Origin: an uncultured Porphyromonadaceae bacterium
Lineage (GTDB): Bacteria; Bacteroidota; Bacteroidia; Bacteroidales; Muribaculaceae
Direction of reading: 5' to 3'
Assembly: GCA_948467675.1 (NCBI GenBank)
Contig: CAOKFI010000002.1
Location: forward strand, 124,001-188,000
DNA length: 64,000 bases
Position numbers and translations under genes: made by a program. This document shows, piece after piece, positions 34,837 through 64,000 of the stretch. Every line of letters starts with the position of its first letter. Within the stretch, counting starts at the first letter, position 1. Under the pieces are notes generated by a model. That model was not told the origin of the DNA and did not search any database. It was given only the letters and a program-made list of their open reading frames with translations.

Positions 34837-34867
34837 GAAAGATAAGGATTAATTAGACATAAAAGGC

Positions 34868-34888
34868 CGCGCGGCGCGATGCCGCGCG
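34868..34888 (-). terminator. GC-rich hairpin ending the caspase operon
   Basis: CGCGCGGC (34868-34875) and GCCGCGCG (34881-34888) form a perfect 8 bp stem with a 5-base loop. On the reverse strand GGCCTTTTATG follows. It lies between the last gene of the four-gene operon and gldE. Confidence 0.65.
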
Positions 34889-34897
34889 ACTGTGTTG

Positions 34898-34948: not shown

Positions 34949-35899
34949 TCAGATATGCAGGCCTATGCTGACGAATATGTTCAGGTTGCCTTTGTTGTCG
35001 TTGTCGACGGTCCACCAGTTGTTTATTGAGTAGTTGCCGGTGCCGTCGGTGTAATCATATCTGGATGAATATGATTCATTATACTTGTCGAAACATGGAG
35101 CCACGTATGTCACACCTGCAAGGATGTTGAGCTTTTTGTAGTGGAACATTACTGCCGCTTCCACCGCTATAGCCCAGTCTGATTCGGGATCTATGGAATC
35201 GTAGTTGTAATTATCAGTCGGATGTTCTATCGGTGTGCCTGCGCTGTTATATAAGGTACTGCTGCTACCGGATTGGTATAAGTTGTAGTTGGCGCCGGCG
35301 CCGGCACCAACAAGCAGGTTCACGTTGTTGCTGAGCCGTTTGATCACACCGCCTGTAAATAACGGAAATGTACCATACGACATAAATGATTCGGAATACC
35401 CGTAACCGGTATCGAATCTGGGTCCGCCGAAACCGCCGATCATGATCTTGGCGTATCCGCCCCATTTGCGGTAGGCACCGCCCATGATACCAGCCTGCGG
35501 AATCATTCCGTCGACCGGAATCGTACCGCCGAGCACTTTGGAAGCTCCACCCACGAGGTTTATGAATCCGTGTGTGCGACGGTGTTCCTTTAGGGTGAAT
35601 ATCATCTGGTTGTGCGCGGTTGTGCGCAGCTTGGTGTCGCGCAGTCCGGTGTAGGAGGCGGTCAGGCTCTTGAGCGTTATGGGCACCTCGATGGAGTACG
35701 AGCCGTCAGCCTCGGTGTAGACGGTCTCGGCTCCGCCGGTGGCACGCACTTCGGCGCCCGACAGCGGATTGCCGTTTTTGTCGACCACCATGCCGGTGAT
35801 GGTGCGTGTGGTTGTGTTGGACTGTGTGCCGGCAGTCTGAGCCGACATGACCGGTACCGCACAGACTATTGCGGCTGTAAGGACGATGTGTTTAAGCAT
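34949..35899 (-). CDS. CarboxypepD-domain outer-membrane barrel protein, last gene of the caspase operon
   Basis: The 316-residue product has a signal peptide (1-20, ending MSAQ), a CarboxypepD-regulatory-like beta-sandwich at about 32-108 (TITGMVVDKNGNPLSGAEV, YTEADGSYSIEVP) and then strands with Gly/aromatic alternation (about 115-316; GGAYRKWGGYAKIMIGGFGG, LLVGAGAGANYNLY), ending NIFVSIGLHI. This is a small outer-membrane barrel with a periplasmic sandwich domain. It lies 22 bp after the DUF4384 gene and is the fourth gene of the operon starting at 40949. Function unknown; an outer-membrane anchor or pore for the exported caspase system is an inference from position. Confidence 0.75.
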   Translation of the reverse strand: MLKHIVLTAAIVCAVPVMSAQTAGTQSNTTTRTITGMVVDKNGNPLSGAEVRATGGAETVYTEADGSYSIEVPITLKSLTASYTGLRDTKLRTTAHNQMIFTLKEHRRTHGFINLVGGASKVLGGTIPVDGMIPQAGIMGGAYRKWGGYAKIMIGGFGGPRFDTGYGYSESFMSYGTFPLFTGGVIKRLSNNVNLLVGAGAGANYNLYQSGSSSTLYNSAGTPIEHPTDNYNYDSIDPESDWAIAVEAAVMFHYKKLNILAGVTYVAPCFDKYNESYSSRYDYTDGTGNYSINNWWTVDNDNKGNLNIFVSIGLHI

Positions 35900-35921
35900 A
35901 ATGTGATATGTATATTATTGG

Positions 35922-36857
35922 TCAGTCACTTACTGTAACTACGGTTTTGATGACCTGCATGTCGGGATCGTGGCGCCGGGCTTTGCCGAGCCATCGCTGG
36001 AAAGAGGTGAAATCGGCCTCGCGCGGCATCAGATCCACTTCCTCTCCGCCTACGTTCACGCTTCGTCCGGTGCTGCTGCGGCGGTCGTTGGCTTTGGCAA
36101 ACCTGTTGGGCGAGAATATAACGTAGACCTGGTTCACGTCCATCTCCTTTCGGGCGTTCATCTTTATGCGCCGTGTCACGTCACGGTATTGAGGCTCTGC
36201 GCTTGCGCGGTCGAAGAACACATATTCCTGTCCTGCCTTTACGGGATATGCGCCTTCGCTCATCCCGTCCATCGGCACAAGGCTCTGCAGGGTCATGGCA
36301 TCGTTGTCGTCGCCTATGTATATGGCCAGATGTCCGTCGACAGGCGATGTGAAGTATATGTACATGTAGTCGCCTACCTTGTAGCTGAAGTTGCGCACCA
36401 GATTGCGGTCCTTGTCGGTTCCGTTGTAGAGCAGCCGTGTGTCTATGTCGATGCGGTTCATCGGAATCTCCCGTATGCGCCCCTTCAGGGTCACTTCATA
36501 GAGGGTCTCGTTGTTCATCGGGGTGATCTGCCATATCGTGTCGCCTATGGTCTCGATCCACTCGCCTCTCACATCGCTTTCGGCTATGGAGTAGAAATCG
36601 TCGCGTTCGCTGTCGGTGGAACTTTGCATGAACGACAGATTCGACATCGATACAGCCGATCCGAATTCACGTCCTATTGCATCGAGCTGGGCGCGGTTTA
36701 TGGCCTCCTGGCGAGCCTGGAACGGCATCATGGAGTGCGGGGCGTAGTACACTGCGTGGCCAGTGACTGTACGCACCTTGTCGGCGCTGACACCGGCGGC
36801 TCCTGCCGCAGCAAGCAGCGCTATGGCTATGGTTGCAAGTTTCCGGTTCATCATCAT
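35922..36857 (-). CDS. DUF4384-domain exported protein
   Basis: This 311-residue protein has a signal peptide (hydrophobic residues 8-24, cleavage near VSA). Residues about 45-130 (FQARQEAINRAQLDAIGREF) resemble the LPP20/FlgT-like domain found before DUF4384. Residues 160-250 match DUF4384 (VGDYMYIYFTSPVDGHLAIY, LVPMDGM, VKAGQEYVFF). DUF4384 proteins are repeatedly found beside caspase-domain genes. Three Met codons in a row make the exact start uncertain by two residues; a long upstream extension overlapping the caspase gene was rejected. Spacing is 29 bp to the caspase gene and 22 bp to the barrel gene. Confidence 0.8.
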   Translation of the reverse strand: MMMNRKLATIAIALLAAAGAAGVSADKVRTVTGHAVYYAPHSMMPFQARQEAINRAQLDAIGREFGSAVSMSNLSFMQSSTDSERDDFYSIAESDVRGEWIETIGDTIWQITPMNNETLYEVTLKGRIREIPMNRIDIDTRLLYNGTDKDRNLVRNFSYKVGDYMYIYFTSPVDGHLAIYIGDDNDAMTLQSLVPMDGMSEGAYPVKAGQEYVFFDRASAEPQYRDVTRRIKMNARKEMDVNQVYVIFSPNRFAKANDRRSSTGRSVNVGGEEVDLMPREADFTSFQRWLGKARRHDPDMQVIKTVVTVSD

Positions 36858-36886
36858 GGATGTGTATGTCTGTGTTATTTTCGGTA

Positions 36887-38836
36887 TCAGTCGAGCAGAG
36901 TCCTTGACCGCCAGCTGTCGCCGAGAGTGGGCGATGCATTGACTGTAGGTGTCTGGTGCTTGTTCTTTTTGTCGTAGGCCTTGTTGTCGACATCGCGCAG
37001 CAGAGCGTCGCCGAGCTCGCCGAGTGATATGGCGCCTTTCGACTGCTGCAGGTGTTTGAGCAGATAGTAGGTAAAGAATCCGTGCTGCTGGTCGTCGTAG
37101 GCCATTGCGGTCTGGTTGCCTGCGGTTGCGCTGAACACCACGGTGTTGCCTTTGGCCACCACATCCTCCACCTCGTATTCGACGAATCGTTCGGCAAACA
37201 GCATCTCGTTGCCGCGAGTGGCTCCGCTGAAACAAGCGTCGAGAAACACGGTCACGCTTTTCGTGGGCATGTCGTCGAGGCGGGCATATAGCTGTTCGAG
37301 CTCGAAGCAGGACTCGAAGTCGGTACCCGAAGCATCGGTAGGGAGCAGGTGTGCGGTGCCGCGTGACACATCTGGAACGCCGTGTCCGGCATAATAGAAT
37401 ATGATGTCGAGCTTGTCGGGGTTCATGCGAGTCTTTTCCTCCAGATACCGTAGCGGCTCGCGTATCTCCGACAGGGTGGCGTCGTAGCGTTCGCGTATGT
37501 TGTCCTTCGGTATGCCGAGCACTTTCTGGCAGTATTCGGCGAATGTGGCTCCGTCGCGCTTGGCGTATGCCACGTCAGAGAAGTACTTGTAGTTCTCGTT
37601 GCCGATTATGACCACGTATGTATTGGGGCGCTGTATGTCGGTGATCGGTATGTTTATGTCGACATCGCTCTGTCCGGCCTTGGTCGCTGCCAGGGTCTCG
37701 GTCTGTACGGGCGTGAAGTTGAGGGTCGGCATGTAGTCGCTTTCGGGCTGCAGAGGAGTGCTGGCTGTGACTTCCTGCGCGCGCAGGGCTGTGAGGGCTT
37801 CATTGGCTTTCCGCAGACCTTCGGCGTCGCCGGTCAGGTTGTGGCACTGTGCCAGCGCGTGGGCCACGTTGATGGCGTAGGGCGATGAGTCGAGGATCTC
37901 CTGCAGCACCGGTACAGCTGCCGTCAGATATGCGTTGGCCAGGGCCATGCCTGTGGTGTCGCCGCTTTCCGCGATGCGGGTATGTGTGGCTATGGCCGCG
38001 TTGTAGAGGTTGAATCCGTAGTGGCATGCGTAGTCGAGGCTCTGCGGATTGGCCTTGTGCAGTCCGGCGAATATCTTGGCCGCTTTTTCGGGCCGGTCCG
38101 TGCGCTCGTACATCTTGCCTTTGTATTCGATGAGTGTGGTGTGGTCGGGGCGCATGGCTATGGCTTTGTCGAGAAATGTCTCCATGCGCTTTTCATTGCC
38201 GGTTTTCAGACATGATTCCACGCCGATCACGACCATGTTCCAGTTCTGGGGATATGCCTCGGATCCCTGCGATGCGATGTAGATGGCGTTGTCGTAGTTG
38301 CGTAGTTCGAAATAACTGCGCGACAGCCCTTCGAAGGCCATTTCGCGTTTCGATACATCGCCGCTCGACAGGTATGCCTGGAAGTAGCGTATGGCTCTCT
38401 GGTAGTCGCCGCGGTTGTATATGTTTGTGGCCGCGAGGTGTGCCAGCACGGGGTATCCGAGCGTTTCCTGCAGCCGGTCGTCGCGCATGCCTGGGAGCAG
38501 CGACAGATCCACGTAGTCGGCGGCGAAATTCAGCACTCGCTCGGGATTGTTGAGCGAGGCATAGTGGTAGGCGGCGCGGCGCAGCTGCGGGAAGACCTCC
38601 TTGAGCGAGATCTTGGCACGGGACCATTCGTCGGAACCGGCTGCCGCGTTGCGCAGTACATCGGTGTAGGCCGTGTAGGCATGACGTAGCGACTGCCATG
38701 CGGTGTCGGCCGGCTGCTCTGTGGCCGACAGTGCTTTGAAGTCGGAGAAATAACTGTCGGCGGCGGCTATGTCGGCTTTTGTCTGCATATATGCCGGCAC
38801 GGCCAGAGCCAGAGTCATCAATATCTGTTTTATCAT
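36887..38836 (-). CDS. Exported TPR-caspase family protease
   Basis: A 649-residue protein with a signal peptide (MIKQILMTLALAVPAYMQTKA), a helical TPR region (about 22-350) and a C-terminal C14 caspase/metacaspase-type domain (about 400-640). The catalytic dyad is complete: His485 in YYAGHGVPD and Cys535 in FLDACFSGA. TYVVIIGNENYKY opens the domain and QHGFFTYYLLKHLQ is the conserved late helix. Bacterial caspases usually cleave after Arg/Lys or Asp and many act in cytoplasmic cell-death defence, but this one is predicted to be periplasmic. It lies 28 bp after the WD40 gene and 29 bp before the DUF4384 gene. The substrate is unknown. Confidence 0.88.
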   Translation of the reverse strand: MIKQILMTLALAVPAYMQTKADIAAADSYFSDFKALSATEQPADTAWQSLRHAYTAYTDVLRNAAAGSDEWSRAKISLKEVFPQLRRAAYHYASLNNPERVLNFAADYVDLSLLPGMRDDRLQETLGYPVLAHLAATNIYNRGDYQRAIRYFQAYLSSGDVSKREMAFEGLSRSYFELRNYDNAIYIASQGSEAYPQNWNMVVIGVESCLKTGNEKRMETFLDKAIAMRPDHTTLIEYKGKMYERTDRPEKAAKIFAGLHKANPQSLDYACHYGFNLYNAAIATHTRIAESGDTTGMALANAYLTAAVPVLQEILDSSPYAINVAHALAQCHNLTGDAEGLRKANEALTALRAQEVTASTPLQPESDYMPTLNFTPVQTETLAATKAGQSDVDINIPITDIQRPNTYVVIIGNENYKYFSDVAYAKRDGATFAEYCQKVLGIPKDNIRERYDATLSEIREPLRYLEEKTRMNPDKLDIIFYYAGHGVPDVSRGTAHLLPTDASGTDFESCFELEQLYARLDDMPTKSVTVFLDACFSGATRGNEMLFAERFVEYEVEDVVAKGNTVVFSATAGNQTAMAYDDQQHGFFTYYLLKHLQQSKGAISLGELGDALLRDVDNKAYDKKNKHQTPTVNASPTLGDSWRSRTLLD

Positions 38837-38864
38837 ACGATTTATCGCTTGTCCGTGTATTTCG

Positions 38865-40949
38865 TTAATATGGATCTACGAATAGTAGGGTTACGTTGAT
38901 TCTTCGGAACTGTCCGCCGCGCTCTTTGCTCACGTTGATGTCGTAGTTGACCGACACATCCATCTGCTGCAGGGCGTCCACCGATTTCATGATGTGGTCG
39001 CGCACGGCCTGTGCCCGCATGAATGCCAGCTGCGGGTTGGTGGCTATGCCGGTCGACGGTGTCACCGTGATGGCCGTCAGGTCATTGTCCACGCGGCAAG
39101 GCTCGTCGTTGAACTCGCCGAAAGAGCCGTCGTAGGCTATGGGGCGGTTGATCGGTGCGGCGTCGGCAGTGCCGGTGAGCGTTAGTATCACCTTCTTGCC
39201 CTGAGCCAGATATCCGGCCAGATCGTTCTCAAACGCTTCGTTTACGATCTGGAGCATCGACTGGGCAGCCGCCGACTCCTCGATACGGTATCGTCCGGGG
39301 GCGAAATCCTCATGATCCGAATATTCCGGATCGACGGTGTATGTGAAGTCGACCTGATAGTTGTTGATCCGTTTGCCGGAGGCATCGGTGGTAGGAACCA
39401 GGCGTGAGCTCACCTCGATCGCCGTGTGTTCGGAAATGGAGCTGTTGCGCAGCGCTTTCTCGACCACATCCTCTTTGATGGACTGGAGCTTGGCGGCCTC
39501 GCGGCTCTGTTGCTGCATGATCTCGAACGGCACGAGCGATGCATCGTCGTTTTTCAGGAAGTCGAGATTCTGGCGGCTCAGGTTGTCGAAACGGTATGTC
39601 TTGCCGTTGGCCTTGTTGTAGACCTCAGTGTAGATCAGCTCGAAATTGTCGTCGGCGGTAAGACCGTAGACCGAGTTGCGGAATTCGAGATCTTCGGCGG
39701 AGAACGAGGTGAGATCCTCTTCCCCGACTGTCAGATACACTTCGGCGAACGAGCCGATGCTGAGTGTGAGTGCGCCTGACTCAGGATTGTAGCCGCCGAG
39801 TGTCACATCCTCGTGTGCTATGAGGTCGCCTGCGAGTCCGGTAGTGATCTCGTTGGCGAAAAGCGATCTCTGCTTCTTGCGTGTCTCGTCGTTGACGCGC
39901 TGCCGGTATTCATCTTCGGTCTCCATCGGTCTCATCATGGACCATTCGAGCATGCGGGCGTTGAGCTCGTCCTCGAGCAGTTTAGTGTAGTTGGTGGCGA
40001 ATCCGACCACGCGTTTGTATTTTATCGACAGCGGCGCATTGTATATTATGTAGACATTGCCCTGTCCGTCCTTTACGAAACGGGTGAAGGCAATGGTACC
40101 TTCCGGATCCTTGATATAGGAGCGGTCGGATGAGTCGATGAGATTGTAGAACCCGATGGTGTTGCCGCCTGTCGCCACGGCCGCGTATTTGCCGTCGGGA
40201 TGAAAGGAGAGCGCGTTGGCGTCGCCGGGAAGCTCGACAGTGGTCGACACGATGAATTCCGGTGTGGAATATACCGTCAGCTTGCGGTCGGAGGTCACGG
40301 CTCCGAACTGTTTTGCGCCGGGATTGAATGCTATGTCCACGACAGTGGCCGGGAGTGTCAGTGTCTGGTGTGTCTTTTTGTCGGGAAGATTGACCACGGT
40401 CACCTTGCCGCCTTCGGCCGCGGCTATGTAGAATCCGTCGGAACTGGCCGTCATCATGACCGGATTCGTGCCTGTGGCAATCTCGCCGGCAGGGGCGAAG
40501 GTGCGCGAATCGAACAACTTGACAGAGCCGTTGTCGGCGACTGCCAGATAGCGGCTGTCGGGAGTATAGCAGATGGCCGTGGGGGCGGTGAGTCCTTTGA
40601 TCGTGGCTGATTTGATATTGGCGTGTCCGAGCGGTCTGATATCTACTTTAGCTTTTTTACCTGTGCCGCTGAGAAATGCTATCGAATGTCCGGCCGGGTT
40701 GATCTTGATGTCGGTCACGGCCGATCCGGCTGAACCGACCTCGAAGCCTTTCATGTTGTAGGCTTTCCTGTCGGTTGAGAAAAACGACGAATACAGATAG
40801 TTGTCGATATGTTCGGGCTTGATTTTCTGTCGGTAGATCAGGTTCTTATCCGCTTTAATGCCGGATGCCGCCAGCGTTTCGGACTGTGTCTGTGCCGATG
40901 CACATACGATCATGGATATCAGGATGGCAGATATAGATAAACGTTTCAC
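38865..40949 (-). CDS. Exported WD40-propeller protein with a divergent OmpA-like C-terminal domain
   Basis: The first gene of the operon encodes 694 residues. A signal peptide ends at ASAQ (residue 20). Residues about 70-315 form WD40-like propeller blades (ITDIKINPAGHSIAFLSG-type repeats, with LAVADNGSVKLFD and HPDGKYAAVATGG). Residues 320-550 are of unknown fold. Residues 555-694 resemble OmpA: KVILTLTGTADAAP, then NPQLAFMRAQAVRDHI and GGQFRRINVTLLF, matching the GhtD, N..Ls..RA..V and RR.v positions of OmpA_C domains, with an insertion in between. OmpA domains bind peptidoglycan, so the protein may be fixed to the cell wall. Its promoter is at 41003-41034. Confidence 0.75.
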   Translation of the reverse strand: MKRLSISAILISMIVCASAQTQSETLAASGIKADKNLIYRQKIKPEHIDNYLYSSFFSTDRKAYNMKGFEVGSAGSAVTDIKINPAGHSIAFLSGTGKKAKVDIRPLGHANIKSATIKGLTAPTAICYTPDSRYLAVADNGSVKLFDSRTFAPAGEIATGTNPVMMTASSDGFYIAAAEGGKVTVVNLPDKKTHQTLTLPATVVDIAFNPGAKQFGAVTSDRKLTVYSTPEFIVSTTVELPGDANALSFHPDGKYAAVATGGNTIGFYNLIDSSDRSYIKDPEGTIAFTRFVKDGQGNVYIIYNAPLSIKYKRVVGFATNYTKLLEDELNARMLEWSMMRPMETEDEYRQRVNDETRKKQRSLFANEITTGLAGDLIAHEDVTLGGYNPESGALTLSIGSFAEVYLTVGEEDLTSFSAEDLEFRNSVYGLTADDNFELIYTEVYNKANGKTYRFDNLSRQNLDFLKNDDASLVPFEIMQQQSREAAKLQSIKEDVVEKALRNSSISEHTAIEVSSRLVPTTDASGKRINNYQVDFTYTVDPEYSDHEDFAPGRYRIEESAAAQSMLQIVNEAFENDLAGYLAQGKKVILTLTGTADAAPINRPIAYDGSFGEFNDEPCRVDNDLTAITVTPSTGIATNPQLAFMRAQAVRDHIMKSVDALQQMDVSVNYDINVSKERGGQFRRINVTLLFVDPY

Positions 40950-41002
40950 TTGAAATGTGTGAAAGAATGTGTGGATGATAATGATGGTGTGCTAAAGTCA
41001 TG

Positions 41003-41034
41003 CAAAGATATGAAACTGAGATAAAAACTGCAAA
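41003..41034 (-). promoter_or_regulatory. Promoter of the WD40-caspase operon
   Basis: Reverse strand TTTG (41031-41034), exactly 20 bp, then TATCTTTG (41003-41010): a perfect Bacteroidetes promoter. The predicted start is about 50 bp upstream of the first ATG. Confidence 0.85.
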
Positions 41035-63388: not shown

Positions 63389-64000
63389 CTATTCTTTTAT
63401 AAATTTTGATTTTACAATCTCTCCGTTCTCCGCCTTGGCCGTAACGACATAGATTCCGCCTGTAAGCGACGACACGTCCACCAGCCCTTCCGGCTCACGG
63501 ATACCCATCACCTCGGCACCCGACAGGTTGAACACCTGTATGGTGTCGATCTTATCGCCTGACGACAGATTCACATTGATATGCGAACGTGCCGGCGACG
63601 GATATATGTTGAGCGAGGCATTGCCTGTGCGGTCGATCCCGATATTGCCGATTCCGGCTATATGGCGCACATCGACCTCGGTAATCAGGGTATCGACATT
63701 AGCGTTCAGACCGTAGCTGCACCATTTTGCCAGGTTGTACTTGTGCATTTTGGGCGATCCGTCCTCATTCTTGTCCCACACATCGTTGCCCATATCCCAG
63801 TAGAATATGCCCTGGAGATTCTGCTCGCGTGTGTATTTGGCACGCTTGTAGGTCAGCATCGGGCCGGTGAAGTAGAACTTCTCGTTGCCGAACGTCTTGT
63901 ATTCCTCGGTTTCCGACGGTACATAATCGTCGGTGAAGAAACCGTCCTTCACGCCCTTGATAGGCGAACCCGACACCTGTCCGTTGCCGTTGGATGTAGT
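63389..64000 (-). CDS. GH18-like endo-glycosidase, C-terminal part with T9SS sorting domain (cut by window edge)
   Basis: Only the last 203 residues are in the window; the gene continues past the right edge. The first 80 visible residues end in QGIFYWDMGNDVWD, matching the last beta strand (GxxxW-D) of GH18 chitinase/endo-beta-N-acetylglucosaminidase barrels. Residues from about 130 to the end, beginning NIYPSPARSHINVNL and ending NGEIVKSKFIKE, form a T9SS type A (Por_Secre_tail) sorting domain. The product would be exported through T9SS to the surface. GH18 is likely but not certain from the C-terminus alone. Confidence 0.7.
   Translation of the reverse strand, partial: TTSNGNGQVSGSPIKGVKDGFFTDDYVPSETEEYKTFGNEKFYFTGPMLTYKRAKYTREQNLQGIFYWDMGNDVWDKNEDGSPKMHKYNLAKWCSYGLNANVDTLITEVDVRHIAGIGNIGIDRTGNASLNIYPSPARSHINVNLSSGDKIDTIQVFNLSGAEVMGIREPEGLVDVSSLTGGIYVVTAKAENGEIVKSKFIKE

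Follow-up and report, generated by a model that had tools for sequence, protein, structure and literature searches.

Bacterial caspases have mostly been discussed as death effectors in the cytoplasm, and the original prediction for the locus described here likewise held them to be mainly cytoplasmic. This view needs a qualifier: the passages of a 2012 survey of prokaryotic metacaspases and orthocaspases that count domain types include metacaspases with N-terminal helices, possibly signal peptides, and report OmpA domains in 14 metacaspase operons (PMC3501461). Caspase domains are also found in EACC1/CHASE2 conflict systems and in caspase-bearing polymorphic toxins, sometimes with CHASE2 or a transglutaminase fold nearby (PMC8195603, PMC7159879, PMC3482391). 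Among envelope proteins, PorE from the T9SS of Porphyromonas gingivalis combines TPR, beta-propeller, CarboxypepD-like and OmpA_C-like domains, and its residues Asp576, Asn584 and Arg591 contact peptidoglycan, gripping diaminopimelate (PMC7192894); in OmpA from A. baumannii, diaminopimelate is bound by Asp271 and Arg286 (PMC5974059).

The operon considered here lies on the minus strand of the window, i.e., the whole 64 kb stretch of DNA that was analysed, and, as had been anticipated, no characterised system with such a gene set is described in the open PMC papers searched. Its genes, named A, B, C and D in the order of transcription, are codirectional and tightly packed, with the following features:

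41003..41034, minus strand: promoter-like site of the Bacteroidetes type, TTTG-N20-TATCTTTG, exact match
38865..40949, minus strand: gene A, WD40 protein with a signal-like start and an OmpA-like C-terminal domain (ORF, 694 aa, GTG start; WD40/beta-propeller Pfam models)
40062..40721, minus strand: WD40 beta-propeller of A, residues 77-296 (WD40 4e-8, above cut-off; PDB WD40 structures match)
39561..39965, minus strand: middle domain of A, residues 329-463, common to A and the B' caspase of sister operons
38889..39323, minus strand: OmpA_C-like domain of A, residues about 543-687, with a ~34-residue insertion (hhalign)
36887..38836, minus strand: gene B, TPR-caspase with a signal-like start (ORF, 649 aa; Peptidase_C14 6.8e-21, above cut-off; TPR)
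36932..37618, minus strand: caspase domain of B, residues 407-635 (Peptidase_C14)
37384-37382 and 37234-37232, minus strand: codons of His485 and Cys535, the catalytic dyad of B
35922..36857, minus strand: gene C, two-domain protein with a signal-like start, its C-terminal half DUF4384-like (ORF, 311 aa)
34949..35899, minus strand: gene D, signal-like start, CarboxypepD_reg, then a probable outer-membrane beta-barrel (ORF, 316 aa)
34866..34890, minus strand: G+C-rich hairpin 3' of the operon (10 pairs, 9 of them G-C, then CTTTT)

The ORF coordinates give intergenic gaps of 28, 29 and 22 bp, exactly as originally predicted, and the dN/dS values against the nearest relative (0.11-0.18 for all four genes, with synonymous sites near saturation) are a sign of purifying selection. 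The Bacteroidetes promoter is present as claimed, its pattern occurring three times in 64 kb versus 0.2 expected, and the exact pattern is mostly absent upstream of the operon in relatives. The GC-rich hairpin claimed for the end of the operon is also found and is the strongest terminator-like site in the region, where the total of such sites (7 versus 5.9 expected) is near chance. Directly downstream (34836-32846, minus strand) lie gldE and gldD, which are T9SS/gliding-linked genes; this neighbourhood is not conserved at the loci of relatives.

The nearest named relatives place the organism in the Muribaculaceae. Within this family and its order, the regions around relatives of A, B and C were mapped using profiles of the window genes. 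Some loci were found through B first, and a search with A only in 99 genomes of the family returned the same loci plus more; all places of A from the latter search were mapped except the fragment G098:C230, and L079, with the C-terminal part of A only, was left out of the 28 loci with A. The families do not occur scattered and without order: B directly follows A on the same strand in 28 of these 28 relative loci, mostly at a spacing of no more than 100 bases or with overlapping open frames, and is itself followed by D or C. C stands after B, directly or beyond D, in 25 of the 26 loci that extend far enough; the contigs of L004 and L087 stop before the position of C, and L076 is the one locus where C is absent after B. 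In the nearest relatives (L003, L036, L037, and L038), D lies between B and C, so the order C-D of the window represents a local change. The operon subtypes are A-B-D-C (the window kind), CHASE2-x-A-B'-C-E-F, A-B-C and A-B-D-D-x-C-F, and the tree of A places the D-type, CHASE2-type, A-B-C, and D-D-F operons each on one side of a well supported branch (100/99 for the D-type). A CHASE2 gene of sensor type is present in sister operons and absent from the window operon; CHASE2 was matched directly in a single upstream protein (L039:1476-2678), whose profile served to recognise its relatives in the other loci.

A is found in 21 of the 99 Muribaculaceae genomes and in 6 further genomes among 247 of the order, three of them with a full-length copy, while a set of 247 genomes of the phylum yielded no further full-length A. 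Occurrence is patchy, the full A unit being an accessory trait that most genomes lack and that is rare outside Muribaculaceae. C is broader in the order (30 of 247 genomes), and a caspase relative of B lies inside 13 of the 20 C loci fetched from 19 genomes, usually adjoining C or within about 3 kb. As regards a mobile origin, no homologue of B was found in 50,697 phage records and none of A in 72,556 plasmid records.

A second, sister operon with A', B' (883 aa), C', E, and F is found on contig 11 of the same genome. Its A' (L035:2531-4601) is split into two overlapping open frames, and near L035 3300-3345 the conserved sequence shifts frame with some residues missing, so that A' is either a broken gene or the result of an assembly error. 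Apart from this operon, contig 12 carries a CHASE2 gene with an internal TGA together with a neighbour gene (L117:3627-5651), a pair resembling that upstream of CHASE2-type operons. The broken A' and the displaced, TGA-bearing CHASE2 gene suggest that in this genome the sister system is undergoing decay. The F proteins (L035:8989-10500 and relatives) have invariant Cys421, His448, and Asp475 (L035 numbering), which, read by eye from the alignment, would correspond to a transglutaminase-like pattern; a Pfam scan of two of them (L035 and L076) gave no match. The genome also has a T9SS, with two Peptidase_C25 proteins and T9SS C-terminal sorting domains, and matches to such sorting domains within the window (63392-63607 and 1974-2156, both on the minus strand) indicate that probable T9SS cargo is also encoded there. 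A PorE-like protein separate from A is present elsewhere in the genome. The candidate identification of A as PorE was rejected because of this separate protein and the lack of BLASTP similarity; moreover, A has no TPR or CarboxypepD matches.

The N-terminal propeller of A is also matched by the Pfam model Beta-prop_THOC3 (2.7e-15), under the cut-off of that model. Its middle domain is related to B' of the sister operons (hhalign probability 98.1, E 1.1e-13; independent match 4.4e-11) and is not found in B of the window. Regarding the OmpA domain originally claimed for A, Pfam gave no backing, OmpA PF00691 having no match in A of the window and reaching E 0.04 in one relative, and a PDB sequence search with the end of A returned no OmpA match. 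Profile comparison did recover it: the profile of A proteins aligned with six OmpA domains from the same genome with an hhalign probability of 92.7, E 4e-7 and a score of 46, where 30 column-shuffled control runs gave a top score of 17. Asp596, Asn638, and Arg645 occur without exception (28 of 28 A proteins) and, apart from an insertion in A, align with the three diaminopimelate-gripping residues of PorE, the Asp and Arg also falling on the positions of Asp271 and Arg286 in the A. baumannii OmpA. AlphaFold models of the C-terminal part of A and of C, built from the window, L003, and L004 sequences only, had a poor mean pLDDT (54.5 and 45, respectively) and gave no significant match in a fold search; the sole agreement with OmpA_C from this low-confidence modelling is that the end of A is predicted to follow the order beta-alpha-beta-alpha-beta-beta. 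By profile and residues, the end of A thus qualifies as a divergent OmpA_C-like fold with predicted peptidoglycan binding. In two distant genomes (G537 and G514), this OmpA-like domain and a caspase are fused in one open frame.

B passes the Pfam model PF00656 of peptidase family C14 by a wide margin (75.4 bits versus a cut-off of 21.4), and the dyad originally proposed is both present and conserved, with His485 in 47 and Cys535 in 46 of the 48 aligned caspases. The acidic pocket residues Asp428 and Asp533 are each conserved in 48 of 48. When solved structures were searched with a profile of the caspase domain, only MALT1 paracaspases were found (best E 1.4e-4), in which both Asp residues of B are aligned to Asp. 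In a metacaspase, basic substrate residues are held by a pair of Asp of this kind (PMC6426788), and the conserved pair in B and its alignment with MALT1 suggest that B would cut after Arg or Lys, as orthocaspases with an acidic pocket do. In the caspases of L091 and L092, the alignment shows Ser or Pro in place of the catalytic Cys and Leu in place of the His; the two are possibly pseudo-enzymes or contain misaligned stretches, and catalysis may therefore be dispensable in some relatives. Immediately N-terminal of the caspase domain, the motif SDVDxNIP (residues 390-397) is strongly conserved, with Pro397 invariant and Asp393 kept in 41 among 49 B proteins. B does not match the EACC1-associated caspase family NF047832, scoring 81.1 bits versus an NCBIfam cut-off of 140.

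For C and D, the domain assignments held in part. Residues 158-250 of C are similar to DUF4384 (PF14326) with E 6.3e-5, at 23.4 bits versus a curated cut-off of 27; the 12 orthologues compared (12/12) all match the model, and the relative L038 reaches 27.2 bits. The gene set supplies a defined context for DUF4384-like proteins. Residues 33-92 of D match CarboxypepD_reg in Pfam (4.5e-11), which bears out the first half of the claimed CarboxypepD barrel; the barrel half goes unrecognised in the window copy, where no Pfam barrel profile matches, and its relative in L038 matches OMP_b-brl at 3.9e-5, itself under the curated cut-off.

Signal peptides had been claimed for all four products, and the N-termini of A, B, C, and D are indeed Sec-signal-like (charged, then hydrophobic) in every orthologue examined, according to a simple, home-made score. 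One of five control proteins reached equally high values, and two others overlapped with the low end of the range; given this partial separation, the score counts as supporting evidence only. The OmpA-caspase fusion of G537 starts with a lipoprotein-type N-terminus with a lipobox-like sequence (LLITGCAQ). Of the conserved, exported, envelope-located system originally put forward, conservation of the operon is supported, and so is a location in the envelope, by the signal-like N-termini, the lipobox-like start of the fusion and the putative peptidoglycan-binding residues of A. The original interpretation is in this way partly supported, its sensor role, its proteolysis and the barrel as an anchor being putative.

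From the gene set and its order, the signal-like starts, the conserved residues and the OmpA-caspase fusion, all read directly in the DNA, we infer a complex together with its location, activity, specificity and role. We lean toward the operon encoding a periplasmic proteolytic complex, tethered to peptidoglycan, that would process envelope or exported proteins. In such a complex, A, with its propeller, middle domain and OmpA-like domain, would be the scaffold gripping diaminopimelate in peptidoglycan, the TPRs of B would bind A and/or other partners, and the His485/Cys535 dyad would cut proteins after Arg or Lys. C would be a constant partner that may serve as a regulator or as an adaptor for substrates, while the CarboxypepD domain of D, on a probable outer-membrane barrel, would link the complex to the outer membrane. 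Most likely, the complex would process its envelope or exported targets in a controlled way, responding to the condition of the envelope. The dyad residues lost in L091 and L092, the poor models of A and C, the simple signal score, the near-saturated synonymous sites and the unrecognised barrel in D of the window count against this model. A wider proposal, which we hold to be doubtful, is that of a previously undescribed, modular pathway of envelope proteolysis in Bacteroidales, where the peptidoglycan-bound WD40 scaffold would activate the periplasmic caspase upon envelope disturbance and interchangeable modules (CHASE2 sensor, transglutaminase-like enzyme, outer-membrane barrel) would set input and output.

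Other readings of the operon can be drawn from the same features. The four domain kinds of PorE (TPR, beta-propeller, CarboxypepD-like, and OmpA_C) are spread over A, B, and D (PMC7192894), and this distribution, the T9SS and PorE-like protein of the genome, and the gldE and gldD genes directly downstream would fit a T9SS accessory in which a PorE-like scaffold split across genes works with a clan CD caspase-type protease that processes secreted proteins, in parallel to PorU. It is an unlikely explanation, however, as A and the PorE-like protein have no BLASTP similarity (E 0.18), no T9SS sorting domain is recognised on B, the linkage to gldE and gldD is not kept in relatives and only a minority of Muribaculaceae have the operon.

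An anti-phage or cell-suicide system, where the caspase would kill the cell via the cutting of envelope proteins, is in line with the patchy distribution and the varied accessory genes, and conflict systems of bacteria often include caspases (PMC7159879, PMC8195603). Yet the products appear to be exported, judging from their signal-like N-termini, no NTPase or nucleotide-signal enzyme is recognised in the operon, B is far under the cut-off of the EACC1-type family NF047832, and neither B in the phage records nor A in the plasmid records searched was found. In PADLOC no complete system was recognised; one caspase model matched in part, over 172 of 453 positions, and the other matches had E > 0.008. 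Altogether, this reading seems very improbable. Gut Bacteroidales export many proteases, and the operon might accordingly be taken for a nutritional or competitive surface protease that digests external proteins and is kept in place by A and D, an idea that we give very little credence. While the probable outer-membrane barrel of D would suit it, and degradation of extracellular protein by metacaspases has been suggested for aquatic bacteria (PMC4933709), B of the window has neither a T9SS sorting domain nor a lipoprotein signal, no uptake gene is recognised among the four window genes, and the near constancy of A and C as partners favours a regulated complex.

The operon combines known domains in an unusual, conserved and apparently exported arrangement, and the idea of an envelope protease is plausible and now better grounded. 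A conserved exported caspase set with an apparent wall-binding partner suggests that bacterial caspases may act in the envelope too, beyond intracellular defence. If borne out, this would give exported bacterial caspases a place, partners and testable residues, and would amount to a new type of envelope proteolysis in bacteria common in the gut.

Compared with described systems, the EACC1/CHASE2 systems and polymorphic toxins share the caspase domain with the operon but are NTP-driven or bear C-terminal toxin domains, respectively, neither feature being recognised in the window operon. MALT1, the best match to B among solved structures and aligned with it at the acidic pocket, is eukaryotic and cytoplasmic, and the similarity is weak (E 1.4e-4). 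The 2012 survey likewise places caspase genes in operons with OmpA domains, some with an N-terminal helix or signal, although its passages counting domain types do not describe this gene set, the peptidoglycan residues or the subtypes (PMC3501461). PorE has the same domain kinds and three diaminopimelate-contacting residues in common with the operon (PMC7192894), but whereas PorE is one lipoprotein without a caspase, the operon spreads these domains over several genes.
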